A DNA stretch of 49,722 nucleotides from Alphaproteobacteria bacterium (lineage in GTDB: Bacteria; Pseudomonadota; Alphaproteobacteria; Micavibrionales; UBA2020): contig JAIOQI010000063.1 in assembly GCA_021413445.1 (NCBI GenBank), positions 1 through 49,722 on the forward strand, given 5' to 3'. This document shows, one piece after another, positions 43,763 to 49,722 of the stretch. Within the stretch, counting starts at the first letter, position 1. Each line of letters starts with the position of its first letter. Under the pieces are notes generated by a model that was not told the origin of the DNA, ran no database searches, and saw nothing but the letters and a program-made list of their open reading frames with translations. The translations under genes and the position numbers were made by a program.

Positions 43763-45151
43763 TCACGCCGCCAGAAACTCGGAAACCTTGCGATAAATTT
43801 CCTTCTGTTCCGGTGTTGCAAACCCGGCGCCGTACCCGGCAATCACCGTCATGCGGTGCAAAGCCATCAGCGAGGACAAGGCGACAACGATCTTTTTGTC
43901 ATGGATATAAGCCAGAACCTGGTGGAAGTCCTCAGGCTTATTGACGATAATGGGCACCTCGTCAAACCTGACGACTTCATCGCCGTCAATCGCCTGCATT
44001 TTCGAGAATGGAATCTTTCCGGCGCGGGTGATGCCGATGAATTCCGGCAGGCCGCAGCGGTCGATCCAGCGGAAGAACCCCGTCACCATGGTGTTCTTGC
44101 GCACCTCCTTGAGCCATTTATTGCCGATGCCGGTCTCTTCGCAGACTTCGCGCGCCATGGCATAGGCGGCCATGTCCCGGAAATCCTCCGGATGCCCGGA
44201 CTTCTTCACGTCGGCATAATTGAACGACCCGGACCCGCCCAGGCACACCATGCTTGCCCCGACGGCGTTGGTCGAGCCTTGCAGCAGCATGGCCACGCGC
44301 TTGTTCTCCGTCAGCAGCAGGCTGGTGATCCCCATATGCAGCGAGACATGCTTGTAAAAATCGGGCGTGAAGCGGAGGCACTCCTGGCCGTCAAAGGTTT
44401 CCCTTTTGACGGGGAAATAGGTGGTGAGATCGGTATAGACTTCTTTTTCATTCTGCAGGTTGCCGCGGAAAATCCGGCTCCGGAACGCCTCCACCGTCAG
44501 CAGCGCGTCGTAATAAAACGCCTTGCGCAACGTGACCGGCCCGTCGCCGGCCAGAGAGTCGGCCATGTCATGAAAGGCGAGCAACACGCCGTTGGTGGTA
44601 TGGGTGAGCTTGTTCAGCACACGGATGGCGATATACCTGAGCTGGTGGCGGGAGGTGATGAAATTGATGGGCTCCTTCTCCTCGCGCCAGGGGATATTTT
44701 TCCGCGTCATCAGGATGTCGTCAACCTTGCTGCTGACCAGCGGGCTTTCCTTGCAGGTCTTGATGTCATCGACCGGGTTGCCAAAACCCAGCGCAGCCTC
44801 TGACGGCGCCGGCAAAACTGCCGACATCGGAAAACTGAGCTCGTCATTGGCGATGTGCGTGCTGTGCTGCGCGCTATAGGTCACGCCGCCGTGGGAGGGC
44901 CGGTAATCCGACGGCATGATCGACATTTCCCCGCCCACCTGCACCATGATGATGGCGGCCTCCACCGCCATGGCGATCAGGTCGTAGAAGGTATTCCACG
45001 AGACCACCGAATAACCAAACAGCGCAAAGGCCAGCAGCGTGGTGGTCAGGTCCTTGCGGTAATCGCTGTCCCATTTGAAGAAGAACAGCATCAGGTCGAG
45101 ACGGCCCTTGACGTTGCGGTAAAAATTGAGCCATTTGATAAAGCTGGACAT
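43763..45151 (-). CDS. membrane-anchored protein with Nudix-like C-terminal domain
   Basis: A 462-residue protein. One or two N-terminal membrane segments (about residues 35-70, TTLLAFALFGYSVVSWNTFYDLIAMAVEAAIIMV) are followed by about 200 unfamiliar residues. The C-terminal part has VCLGGSGSFNYADVKKSGHPEDFRDMAAYAMAREVCEETGIG, whose REVCEETGI end is the Nudix box core, with one extra residue in the Gx5Ex7 spacing and Asp for the first Glu. Nudix enzymes hydrolyse nucleoside diphosphates linked to X. The gene starts 11 bases after prpC in the same direction, so it belongs to the prp operon. Function is unknown. Confidence 0.65.
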   Translation of the reverse strand: MSSFIKWLNFYRNVKGRLDLMLFFFKWDSDYRKDLTTTLLAFALFGYSVVSWNTFYDLIAMAVEAAIIMVQVGGEMSIMPSDYRPSHGGVTYSAQHSTHIANDELSFPMSAVLPAPSEAALGFGNPVDDIKTCKESPLVSSKVDDILMTRKNIPWREEKEPINFITSRHQLRYIAIRVLNKLTHTTNGVLLAFHDMADSLAGDGPVTLRKAFYYDALLTVEAFRSRIFRGNLQNEKEVYTDLTTYFPVKRETFDGQECLRFTPDFYKHVSLHMGITSLLLTENKRVAMLLQGSTNAVGASMVCLGGSGSFNYADVKKSGHPEDFRDMAAYAMAREVCEETGIGNKWLKEVRKNTMVTGFFRWIDRCGLPEFIGITRAGKIPFSKMQAIDGDEVVRFDEVPIIVNKPEDFHQVLAYIHDKKIVVALSSLMALHRMTVIAGYGAGFATPEQKEIYRKVSEFLAA

Positions 45152-46323: not shown

Positions 46324-47259
46324 TCAGGACTTGCAAGAAGGCGGTTCATTTTTTTTTACGCCTTGGGACTTGCTTCCCAACTGCTTTGCACGCGCGGCAA
46401 CCTGGCCCGGATAGTCTATCAACTGCTGAAAATCCTCGCGCTTTTGCATTTGTGGTTCCATGCCGCGCTGCGTGCCTTTGGCATAAATTTCCTGATACAT
46501 TTTTGCCGCCGTCTGGCGCTGTCCGCGATATACCGTCAGCGGGTTGAGAACGATATCGACGTTACCGCCGGTTTCCTTGGCGATCTCCTGCGGCGTTTTA
46601 AGGGCAACCTTGCCGAACTCCGTCATGTTGGCCAGCACCGGCTTGCCCTGCGCCGCTTTTTTAACCTGGGCGTAAGTGGCGGCATCCGGGAAAGCCTCGG
46701 CAAAAATCATGTCGGCGCCTGCCGCCGCATAAGAAGTGATGCGCGAGAGGGTTTTTTCCATGCCTTCCACGGCCAGTGCGTCCGTCCGCGCCATCACCAC
46801 AAAATCGGGGTCTTTTTTTGCAGTGACAGCTCTTTTGATACGGGCGGTTGCGTCTTCCTGGCTGACGACATGCTTGCCCGGCAGGTGTCCGCAGGCTTTC
46901 AAATCCTGCTGGTCTTCGATGTGCACCGCCGCCGCGCCTGCTTTTTCAAGGGCGTGGATGGTTTCGGCGACATCGTCAAAGCCCGTGTCAATATCGACCA
47001 GAACGGGAAGCTTGGTGCCGCTATCGAGAATGCGCTGCACATGTTCAACCACATGTTTGAGTTCGATGCGGCCGATGTCCGCCCAGCCGCGGGAGGCCGC
47101 GACCTGGCTGCCTGAAATATAGAGCGCCTTGAATCCCGCTTTCTCCGCTTCCAGCGCGTCCGAGCCGTCCGCCACGCCGATCACATGCAACGGTGTGCCG
47201 TCAGCAAGGGCCTCTTTCATGGCCTGACGAAAACGTTTTCCGGCGGATACTTTTATCAT
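46324..47259 (-). CDS. prpB: methylisocitrate lyase
   Basis: A 311-residue isocitrate-lyase-superfamily enzyme splitting 2-methylisocitrate into pyruvate and succinate. LPVLVDIDTGFDDVAETIHALEKAGAAAVHIEDQQDLKACGHLPGKHVVSQEDA contains the Mg-binding Asp pair and the catalytic Cys in ACGH (most relatives have RCGH or KCGH). FVVMARTDALAVEGMEKTLSR follows. The frame is open to 47286, but ATG at 47259 overlaps the prpD stop (ATGA) and has GGAG eight bases upstream, so it is the start. Confidence 0.92.
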   Translation of the reverse strand: MIKVSAGKRFRQAMKEALADGTPLHVIGVADGSDALEAEKAGFKALYISGSQVAASRGWADIGRIELKHVVEHVQRILDSGTKLPVLVDIDTGFDDVAETIHALEKAGAAAVHIEDQQDLKACGHLPGKHVVSQEDATARIKRAVTAKKDPDFVVMARTDALAVEGMEKTLSRITSYAAAGADMIFAEAFPDAATYAQVKKAAQGKPVLANMTEFGKVALKTPQEIAKETGGNVDIVLNPLTVYRGQRQTAAKMYQEIYAKGTQRGMEPQMQKREDFQQLIDYPGQVAARAKQLGSKSQGVKKNEPPSCKS

Positions 47260-48782
47260 GCGCATTTCTCCTTCTCCCTCTTGCAAGAATACGACACGCG
47301 GCAGGCATTGTAAATGCCGCGCGTTTTCACTTCCGCCAGGGACACCAGATCAAGCTTCGGCGTCAGCTCTTTCAGCTTGGCCGCGGGGCTGTTTTGCAGG
47401 CCCTCGACAGCCTTGAGGAAGCGCTTGCGCTCCACGTCGCTGATGAGGCCCTTGGTCAGGTTTTCGAGCTTGCGGACGTAGTTGGGGCGCTTCCACGGCG
47501 TCTTGCCGAAGGGATGGGCGTTGGCGCAGGCTTTCGAATCCTTCACCACCCTGCCGTCGGCGAGGGTGACCATCAGCGTGCCGCCGAAAGACTGCTCCTT
47601 CGGGTCGGTCGAGTGATAGCGGCGTTCCCATTCAGCATCCTGCTGGGTGCGGATTTTCGCCATGGCAGAACGCAATTCTTCCTTCTCGCTCTTCTTGATC
47701 TCATAAACGCTTTCATCCCAGCGGCCGAGCTGCATGGAGCGCGCGATGGCGAACATGATGCTGTGGTCGAGCGTGCCGCGCGGGCTGTCGGGGTCGATCT
47801 TCTGCGGATCGTTGGCGCCGGTGCCGATGACGTGGTCGGTATGATGGCTGGTGACGAGCAGGATGCCCTTGATCTGGCTCCAATCGACGGCGCCGTTCTT
47901 TTTCTTCGGCATCTTGCCAGCCAGTTCCAGCGCCATGTCGATGATCGCCTGCCCTTGATACTCGAAAGCATGCTCTTTCGGGTAAGTCATCATGATATTG
48001 CGCAGTTTGTCCTTGCCGGGTTCGGCCAGCGCCACTTTATAGGCGGCATTGGGATCGTTCTTGCCGTCGAGAAAGCGGCGGATGATGCTGTCCTCGCCTT
48101 CATAGACCGGGTTCGGGCCCTTGAGGCCGTGCATCGCGGAATTGACGGCGTCAATGGAGATTTCCGCCGAGAAGCCGGGCACGAATTCCTTCTGCGCGCC
48201 GATGTCGCCCTTGCGCGACTGGCGCGAGGAAATGGAATTGTGGACAGCAAAATTGACGGCGTGGTAAATCTGCTCGACCGGCAGCTTCAGCATCGCGCCG
48301 ATACCCGCCGTCGCCGCCGCCGCGATATGGGTCATGTGATCGACCTTGTGCTTGTGCAGGCAGATGCCGGTGCCCTCGCCCGTGCCCACCAGCGCCACAT
48401 GCACTTCATAAGCGACGCCGATGCCGCGGATCATGTCCTTGCCGGAAACATCCAGCTGCTGCGCGACGGCGAGGATAGGGGAAATATTGTCGTCGGGGTG
48501 CGAGTATTCAGCGGCGAGATAGGTGTCATCCTGGTCGCGGAAACGGACCGCGACCGCGTTGACGAAAGCGGCTTCCTTCGGCCCGAAGGTTTCCTTCTGG
48601 GATAAGCCGTAGATGGTGGCCTTGCCCGTGCCCTTTGATGCCAGCGCCTTGTCCCGCGCGACCGCCACCGCATGCTCGTTCACCGCCGCCAGCGCAATCG
48701 CCGCGTTATCGATGATGCGGTTCTTGATCATATCGACCACTTCGGCATCAAGATCGGAATCTTTTGTCTTCGCCGCCAGCAC
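47256..48782 (-). CDS. prpD: 2-methylcitrate dehydratase, N-terminally truncated
   Basis: A MmgE/PrpD-family protein, 508 residues from a GTG at 48782. IKNRIIDNAAIALAAVNEHAVAVARDKAL, DQDDTYLAAEYSHPDDNISPILAVAQ and KHKVDHMTHIAAAATAGIGAML match the long PrpD type. The frame continues upstream through QLAWKIAV (48803-48780), a block found near the N-terminus of this type, and then meets TAA at 48821. The normal initiation region, roughly the first 15-25 residues, is missing and replaced by AT-rich foreign DNA. It must start at an internal GTG or CTG, so activity and expression are uncertain. It is the first intact gene of prpD-prpB-prpC, coupled to prpB by ATGA. Confidence 0.88.
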   Translation of the reverse strand: MLAAKTKDSDLDAEVVDMIKNRIIDNAAIALAAVNEHAVAVARDKALASKGTGKATIYGLSQKETFGPKEAAFVNAVAVRFRDQDDTYLAAEYSHPDDNISPILAVAQQLDVSGKDMIRGIGVAYEVHVALVGTGEGTGICLHKHKVDHMTHIAAAATAGIGAMLKLPVEQIYHAVNFAVHNSISSRQSRKGDIGAQKEFVPGFSAEISIDAVNSAMHGLKGPNPVYEGEDSIIRRFLDGKNDPNAAYKVALAEPGKDKLRNIMMTYPKEHAFEYQGQAIIDMALELAGKMPKKKNGAVDWSQIKGILLVTSHHTDHVIGTGANDPQKIDPDSPRGTLDHSIMFAIARSMQLGRWDESVYEIKKSEKEELRSAMAKIRTQQDAEWERRYHSTDPKEQSFGGTLMVTLADGRVVKDSKACANAHPFGKTPWKRPNYVRKLENLTKGLISDVERKRFLKAVEGLQNSPAAKLKELTPKLDLVSLAEVKTRGIYNACRVSYSCKREKEKCA

Positions 48783-49257
48783 GGCGATTTTCCACGCCAG
48801 CTGGCACTTCCTGTATCTTTAAGTCTTTAGACCTATGGCCAAATACCTCGTTTTTTAACCTCGAAACTTTTACCCATATAGGTTTTGCCCGCGCATACAG
48901 CTCATTAATCTCCTTCAGAGATTCTTCTGAGAAAGTTTTATTATCTTCTAAGCTCTTCAAGAACCGGGGAATGTTGTGTGTATCATTTCTAGTTTCATAG
49001 AGCCTGTACAAAGGCGTAATACAAGCAACAAAATGTGCATGGATACTTGTTACAAAAAAGAGAAGATACTGACTGTCATTCAATACAGGTAAATATTCAG
49101 CTCTATTTTTATCATAAAAATCCCACACATCATGATTAAGGCTAGCTACCTTAATGGAATGGCGTAATTCTTCAACGGTCTCCAATAAAACAGTTTCCTG
49201 GATCCCCGCCTTCGCGGGGATGACCGTAGTGGATAATTGATGTCTATTCGTATTCAT
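48748..49257 (-). CDS. HEPN/AbiU2-like protein inserted upstream of prpD
   Basis: A 169-residue AT-rich gene. The core (VEELRHSIKVASLNHDVWDFYDKNRAEYLPVLND, FFVTSIHAHFVACITPLYRLYETRNDTHNIPRFLKSLED and VSRLKNEVFGHRSKDL) resembles the HEPN_AbiU2 domain; RLKNEVFGH fits the Rx4-6H RNase motif. Such proteins act in abortive phage infection or toxin-antitoxin systems. The last 18 or so residues (VPAGVENRRAGGEDKRFRS) read out-of-frame through the start of prpD, so the true C-terminus has been lost or altered. The N-terminus contains VIPAKAGIQ, translated from a palindromic repeat, so the real start is uncertain. Confidence 0.55.
   Translation of the reverse strand: MNTNRHQLSTTVIPAKAGIQETVLLETVEELRHSIKVASLNHDVWDFYDKNRAEYLPVLNDSQYLLFFVTSIHAHFVACITPLYRLYETRNDTHNIPRFLKSLEDNKTFSEESLKEINELYARAKPIWVKVSRLKNEVFGHRSKDLKIQEVPAGVENRRAGGEDKRFRS
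49202..49221. repeat. dispersed palindromic repeat (VIPAKAGIQ type)
   Basis: ATCCCCGC (49202-49209) and GCGGGGAT (49214-49221) form an 8-bp perfect stem with loop CTTC, within a unit that continues to CTGG on the left and GACCGT on the right. Read on the minus strand it translates as VIPAKAGIQ, a phrase well known from repetitive palindromic elements in many bacterial genomes. It lies in the AT-rich segment inserted next to prpD and is GC-rich against that background. Confidence 0.8.
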
Positions 49258-49275
49258 TCGCGGGCAACTGACTTT

Positions 49276-49722
49276 CTACACATTAAACCTGAACAGCATG
49301 ATATCGCCGTCTTTGACGACGTATTCTTTACCTTCCGAGCGCATTTTTCCAGCTTCTTTTGCGGCCTGTTCGCCGCCGAGGCCGAGGAAATCCTTTATGT
49401 CAATGGTCTCGGCGCGGATGAAGCCGCGCTCGAAGTCGGTGTGGATGACCCCTGCCGCCTGCGGCGCCTTGGACAGGTTCTTGACCGTCCAGGCCCGCGC
49501 CTCCTTGGGGCCGACGGTGAAGAAGGTGATGAGGTCGAGCAGCTTGTACCCGGCGCGAATGACGCGGTTCAGCCCCGCCTCATCAAGACCGATCGAGTCC
49601 AGAAATTCCTTCTTCTCCTCCTCCGACCCGAGCTGGGCGATGTCGGATTCGATGGCCGCGCAGATGACCACGTATTCCGCGCCCTGCGCCTTCGCCATCG
49701 CAGCGACGCGCTCCGTATATTG
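49276..49722 (-). CDS. ychF: ribosome-binding ATPase YchF (3' part)
   Basis: The last 148 codons of YchF/OBG-type ATPase, open through the window edge. [92 protein letters not shown] is the helical and TGS region, and [17 protein letters not shown] is the diagnostic C-terminus. YchF binds ATP and the ribosome and influences oxidative-stress responses. The nucleotide-binding part is outside the window. It precedes the AbiU2-like gene in the same direction by 18 bases. Confidence 0.95.

Follow-up and report, generated by a model that had tools for sequence, protein, structure and literature searches.

Organization of the ychF-prpD junction

What occupies the AT-rich space between ychF and prpD in this alphaproteobacterial genome, and does it hold a working defence gene? 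A sequence-only reading of the window (the whole stretch of DNA analyzed, 49,722 nt) had proposed that a cassette resembling AbiU2 replaced the 5' end of prpD and thereby put a phage-defence-type gene in front of a metabolic operon. On the minus strand the gene order is the 3' end of ychF, a 169-aa ORF, prpD, prpB, and prpC (Table 1). The DNA of the 169-aa ORF has a GC content of 35-42%, compared with approximately 60% in both flanks, and the replacement DNA upstream of the QLAWKIA codons of prpD is 36% GC. The YchF sequence is 83-88% identical to that of relatives. An ORF of 462 aa that follows prpC (positions 43763-45151, minus strand) has no Pfam or NCBIfam match.

Table 1. Features of the junction between ychF and prpD, in window coordinates.
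Feature	Coordinates	Strand	Remarks
prpD, 5'-shortened	47256..48782	-	508 aa from GTG; relatives 26 residues longer N-terminally
169-aa fusion ORF	48748..49257	-	Four-part composition
QLAWKIA codons of prpD	48783..48803	-	Intact; upstream of first ATG/GTG/TTG start
AbiU2/prpD join	48804..48805	-	...GAAGTG (AbiU2) then CCAGCTGGCG... (prpD)
HEPN_AbiU2 remnant, C-terminally truncated	48805..49185	-	PF18734; 52% identity to L092; possible TTG start at 49185
CAT (His141)	48835..48837	-	Conserved HEPN histidine, kept
AAA (Lys135)	48853..48855	-	Predicted catalytic Arg in all nine close homologues
CGTC-type REP palindrome	49199..49226	.	5' edge of AbiU2 remnant; translates as VIPAKAGIQ
DNA from ychF stop to REP	49227..49275	-	ATG 49257 possibly the old prpD start, weakly suggested
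ychF 3' end	49276..49722	-	PF06071; runs off contig end; stop codon 49276-49278

The 169-aa ORF is a composite of four parts: junction DNA (aa 1-11), the REP palindrome (approximately aa 12-20), the AbiU2 core (approximately aa 25-151), and prpD DNA read out of frame (aa 152-169). The proposal that its C-terminus reads into prpD out of frame was thus correct for the final 18 residues. The description of the ORF as AbiU2-like applies to the core and not to the first 20 codons from the start at 49257, which are approximately 11 junction codons followed by the palindrome. Because homology to AbiU2 ends at Val151 (48807-48805) and homology to prpD begins at the CCAG at 48804, the two genes are both cut at a single join. 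This 3' join is a bare junction with no repeat, and apart from the REP palindrome we saw no mobile-element ends. The fusion ORF is known from one genome only, as judged by searches of relatives, the class, and the phylum.

The AT-rich segment is a truncated AbiU2 gene

One frame stays open through all 384 nt of the AbiU2 segment, a property that none of 3000 dinucleotide shuffles reproduced; because, in addition, nine independent homologues align to it, the reading frame is not a chance occurrence. A Pfam profile search placed residues 25-148 in HEPN_AbiU2 (PF18734, E = 3.9e-17), with a score of 62.8 bits against a gathering threshold of 26.8, so the match on which the proposal of an AbiU2-like core depended is real and the segment belongs to the family. 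It does not extend over the full-length domain (approximately 3-185 of the 193 profile positions): the window sequence covers profile positions 5-140 only, whereas the homologues cover 2-190.

The nine true homologues (L087-L095, all in other genomes) were retrieved with a degenerate DNA pattern for W[VIL]K[VIL]xxx[KR]NxxF[GA]HR, which admits Lys as well as Arg at the motif position; shorter RN[KE]VFGH patterns, tried in IMG/VR before this longer pattern, gave chance matches only. The best of them, L092, is 52% identical over 126 aa. All nine extend beyond the point at which the window sequence ends (Val151), and the native proteins are approximately 57 aa longer. No close homologue was found by exact-peptide scans of genome contigs and IMG/VR, by tblastn in plasmids and phages, or by protein searches of relatives, the class, and the phylum, and no second AbiU2 piece was found elsewhere in the window's genome. 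The remnant had no match in PHROGs, NCBIfam, or PADLOC; neither the window nor three homologues gave a PADLOC hit, and its library may lack this AbiU2 group.

In the AlphaFold model of L092, predicted helices at residues 140-162 and 173-187 fall in the part that is missing from the window. Because HEPN toxin structures align over residues 3-164 of that model, the fourth helix of the bundle lies in the lost part. The alignments to HEPN toxins (8yuf, 8xdj, 7ae2) have Z-scores of 7.7-9.0, moderate values for a helical bundle that are intermixed with those of unrelated bundles; they support the HEPN fold short of proving it. A Foldseek search with the model gave no significant match.

The sequence-only reading had also credited the protein with an Rx4-6H HEPN motif, a point on which it was mistaken: the window reads R-L-K-N-E-V-F-G-H, with Lys at the Arg position. 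All nine close homologues have R-N-x-x-F-[GA]-H where the window has K-N-E-V-F-G-H. The motif is conserved in AbiU2 according to a published survey, which also reports that PrrC and RNase L, the latter in its KEN domain, need this Arg to act as RNases (PMC3710099). Having lost both the conserved Arg and the last predicted helices, the AbiU2 remnant very probably has no RNase activity. The suggestion that a phage-defence gene now precedes the operon is therefore not supported in the sense of a working gene, as the C-terminus is truncated and both the native start and the predicted catalytic Arg are lost. From these features the AbiU2 part is most likely a dead toxin fragment, and a new defence role for it is unlikely.

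Homologues are found in defence settings, with L092 following hsdM-hsdS-hsdR and L094 near a GmrSD-type gene, but we found no association of AbiU2 with prpD elsewhere. At the former locus (L092:144-6667), the full-length homologue lies directly after the hsd operon, its start approximately 10 nt past hsdR.

prpD has lost its 5' end and kept its body

Upstream of GTG 48782 the prpD frame passes through QLAWKIA (Q at 48803) and then meets a stop, as had been described. In the same genus, PrpD (G003-G007) starts M-K-x-H-I-V-K...KKE[DE]-QLAWKIA, and its ATG lies 78 nt upstream of the site that corresponds to the window's GTG. We inspected the N-termini of 51 PrpD genes, 22 from the order and 29 from the class. 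Every one extends N-terminally past the point at which the window PrpD can start, in agreement with the earlier statement that the long PrpD type normally carries an additional N-terminal segment, and a natural start at LAAKTK, which would have spoken for an intact gene, was found in none. Within the N-terminal block, QLAWK is exact in 44 of the 51 and a close variant in the other 7 (QLAYK, ELAWK, QFAWK, QLAFR, QLAGR, MSWR). The window PrpD is without the H-x-V-[KR]...QLAWK block; QLAWKIA alone is kept, upstream of the first standard start. On this comparison the window PrpD is most likely shorter N-terminally by approximately 19-26 residues: approximately 20 if translation begins at CTG 48800, and 26 if it begins at GTG 48782. 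The AlphaFold model of PrpD from G006 has a predicted strand at residues 2-7 and a first helix at 21-34, and a protein begun at GTG 48782 would lack that strand and the first turns of the helix. A search by sequence found no solved PrpD structure that covers the N-terminus.

The rest of the gene retains the character of a 2-methylcitrate dehydratase. Its product matches the MmgE/PrpD N- and C-terminal domains (PF03972, E = 1.1e-55; PF19305, E = 1.2e-21), and prpB and prpC lie downstream, so both the domains and the prpDBC neighbourhood identify it as PrpD. The body is open, conserved, and free of decay, with pairwise dN/dS values of 0.07-0.14 that are within the range of relatives; it is under purifying selection. 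In a tree of first and second codon positions the window prpD branch is no longer than those of relatives, and the divergence of prpD is too deep for dating the join. An AbiU2 frame with no stop over 127 codons implies that the join is either recent or still selected. Together with the intact QLAWKIA, the open frame suggests a recent join, or else translation of QLAWKIA from the non-standard CTG 48800. Putative ribosome-binding sequences are present for both candidate starts: AGGAAG just upstream of CTG 48800, and GGAA at a usable distance from GTG 48782. Scans of the join region for sigma-70 promoters and terminators found nothing, and because no promoter-like site was found there, read-through from ychF would be the simplest source of the prpD transcript. 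Of the earlier suggestion that the insertion changed the PrpD N-terminus and promoter, the first half stands, in that the N-terminus is shortened and the native start region is gone, and an effect on the promoter is plausible.

Some observations on the neighbourhood are recorded here in their own right. PrpB proteins from the other relatives in the genus and near family are 73-77% identical to the window PrpB, whereas in G006 the gene after prpD (L071:4373-4987) is a divergent prpB-like gene whose product has 39.5% identity to it. G014 carries two prpD copies, on contigs C147 (L009; E = 2.7e-276) and C35 (L027; E = 4e-269), one of them on a short contig.

The gap between ychF and prpD is a variable gene slot

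We read the same gap in relatives (loci L070, L072, L073, L074, L077, and L078, as well as G006). The junction in G006, of the same genus, is empty, with ychF followed after approximately 14 nt by a full-length prpD. Opposite to prpD, the gap holds an RNase_T-family exonuclease in G007, a small membrane-anchored protein in G004 and G005, and a 139-aa protein in G003; in prpD's own orientation, it holds a Zeta toxin (PF06414, E = 1.3e-31) and a small 124-aa protein in G012 and G014. The prpD start is intact in all of these genomes (G003, G004, G005, G006, G007, G012, and G014). Because the window branches outside G003-G007 in a tree of prpD and ychF (support 95-96), the content of the slot has turned over between lineages. 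The uninterrupted ychF-prpD arrangement in G006 supports the earlier proposal that prpD was altered at its 5' end by an insertion accompanied by a deletion.

At the other edge of the remnant, the REP palindrome occupies the place of the start Met of the AbiU2 homologues. The window's genome (G000) contains more than a dozen related palindromes at dispersed sites. Copies occur on contigs C14, C17, C21, C50, C63, C67, C75, and others (L030-L055), including several inverted pairs 40-80 bp apart. Between the palindrome and ychF, ATG 49257 lies 18 nt past the ychF stop, compared with approximately 14 nt for the prpD start in G006. The window sequence TTGCCCGCGAATGAATACGAATA agrees with the G006 ychF-prpD junction TTCCCCGCAAATGAAAACACATA at 18 of 23 bases, as good a match as was reached by 3 of 5000 mononucleotide shuffles. 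Because an anchored control, an ATGAA context of this genome with no relation to the junction, matches equally well (17/27; 1 of approximately 329), we take the resemblance to be weakly suggestive; prpD may once have started at ATG 49257.

History of the junction

Taking the evidence together, we think it probable that an acquired AbiU2 gene resided in the slot and that a later deletion fused it to prpD, leaving a dead fragment and a shortened PrpD. The order of events that we infer is as follows. An AT-rich AbiU2 (HEPN) gene would have entered the variable ychF-prpD slot in the orientation of prpD. A later deletion would have begun near AbiU2 codon 133 (in the numbering of L092) and reached codon 19 of prpD. 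AbiU2 would have lost approximately 57 C-terminal residues and PrpD its first 19; the intervening spacer, which contained the native prpD start region, would have gone as well, and the two genes would have been joined out of frame. The REP palindrome borders the remnant on its 5' side. The prpD transcript would then run from ychF through the remnant, with translation starting at GTG 48782 or at the non-standard CTG 48800. Counting against such a deletion are the AbiU2 frame with its 127 stop-free codons and the intact QLAWKIA, even though the latter is upstream of the first standard start. Insertion of a fragment that was already broken would also leave nearly identical sequence: it could have gone straight into prpD, at the 5' end of the coding sequence, in which case ATG 49257 would be the old prpD start and would now initiate the fusion ORF. 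The resemblance to the G006 junction and the similar spacing from the ychF stop speak for such a direct insertion, but the anchored control matches as well, and prpD codons 6-19 would still have to be lost; we judge it unlikely.

The open frame, which no shuffle reproduced, could instead mean that the fusion ORF encodes a small, functional protein of HEPN derivation that has been kept before prpD, perhaps as a regulator without catalytic activity. HEPN domains that lack the motif can indeed regulate, as does MtlR in mannitol operons (PMC3710099), but the ORF occurs in a single genome, no association of AbiU2 with prpD was found elsewhere, the C-terminal bundle helix is gone, and the tail is out-of-frame prpD DNA, so that we regard a working protein as very improbable. 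A more specific version, by analogy with MtlR, would have the truncated, motif-less protein expressed from the former upstream signals and serving the prp operon as a translational coupler or as a leader that binds RNA without catalysis, and to this we give still less credence. An assembly artefact, in which AT-rich DNA was misjoined between ychF and prpD, is favoured by the fragmentation of this metagenome-assembled genome (87 contigs, 2.8% contamination) and by the position of the join only 917 bp from a contig end, points that also count against the deletion. However, the flanks keep the ychF-prpD order of relatives, and the insert is single-copy and shorter than 500 bp, such that both of its ends would need to be false; the chance of an artefact seems to us slight in the extreme.

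A probable deletion following acquisition thus remains our preferred account, and the locus is an ordinary genome scar and not a new defence system. Its interest is that it offers a clean case in which a defence gene in transit through a variable slot can scar the neighbouring metabolic gene, and a natural test of the need for the conserved PrpD N-terminus, which is present in every relative checked. It also has a bearing on annotation, in that gene callers would give the remnant the label of an AbiU2 defence protein, and it is probably no longer one.

Comparison with known systems

The nearest full-length counterpart of the remnant, HEPN_AbiU2 L092 from a Rhodocyclaceae metagenome-assembled genome, has in common with it the WVKV...N-x-x-F-G-H-R block in addition to the identity given above; the window copy differs in being without the approximately 57 C-terminal residues, the native start, the conserved Arg (replaced by Lys), and adjacent restriction-modification genes. 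Compared with PrpD of the same genus (G003-G007), the window protein has a body that is 79-87% identical and the same ychF-prpD order, but residues 1-19 are replaced, and the GTG start makes it 26 residues shorter. The palindrome resembles the CGTC-tagged REPs, which are known to occur inside the 5' ends of ORFs (PMC3733652), in its short sequence GTCATCCCCGCGAAGGCGGGGATCCAG and in having dispersed relatives in the genome; it differs in that the window copy ends in GGTC, not CGTC. Finally, MtlR is a HEPN-type repressor, often without the motif, that is found in mannitol operons (PMC3710099). The trait that it has in common with the window protein is that of a HEPN-type protein without an intact motif beside a metabolic operon, but there is no sequence evidence of kinship between the two, and the window protein is truncated and confined to one genome.
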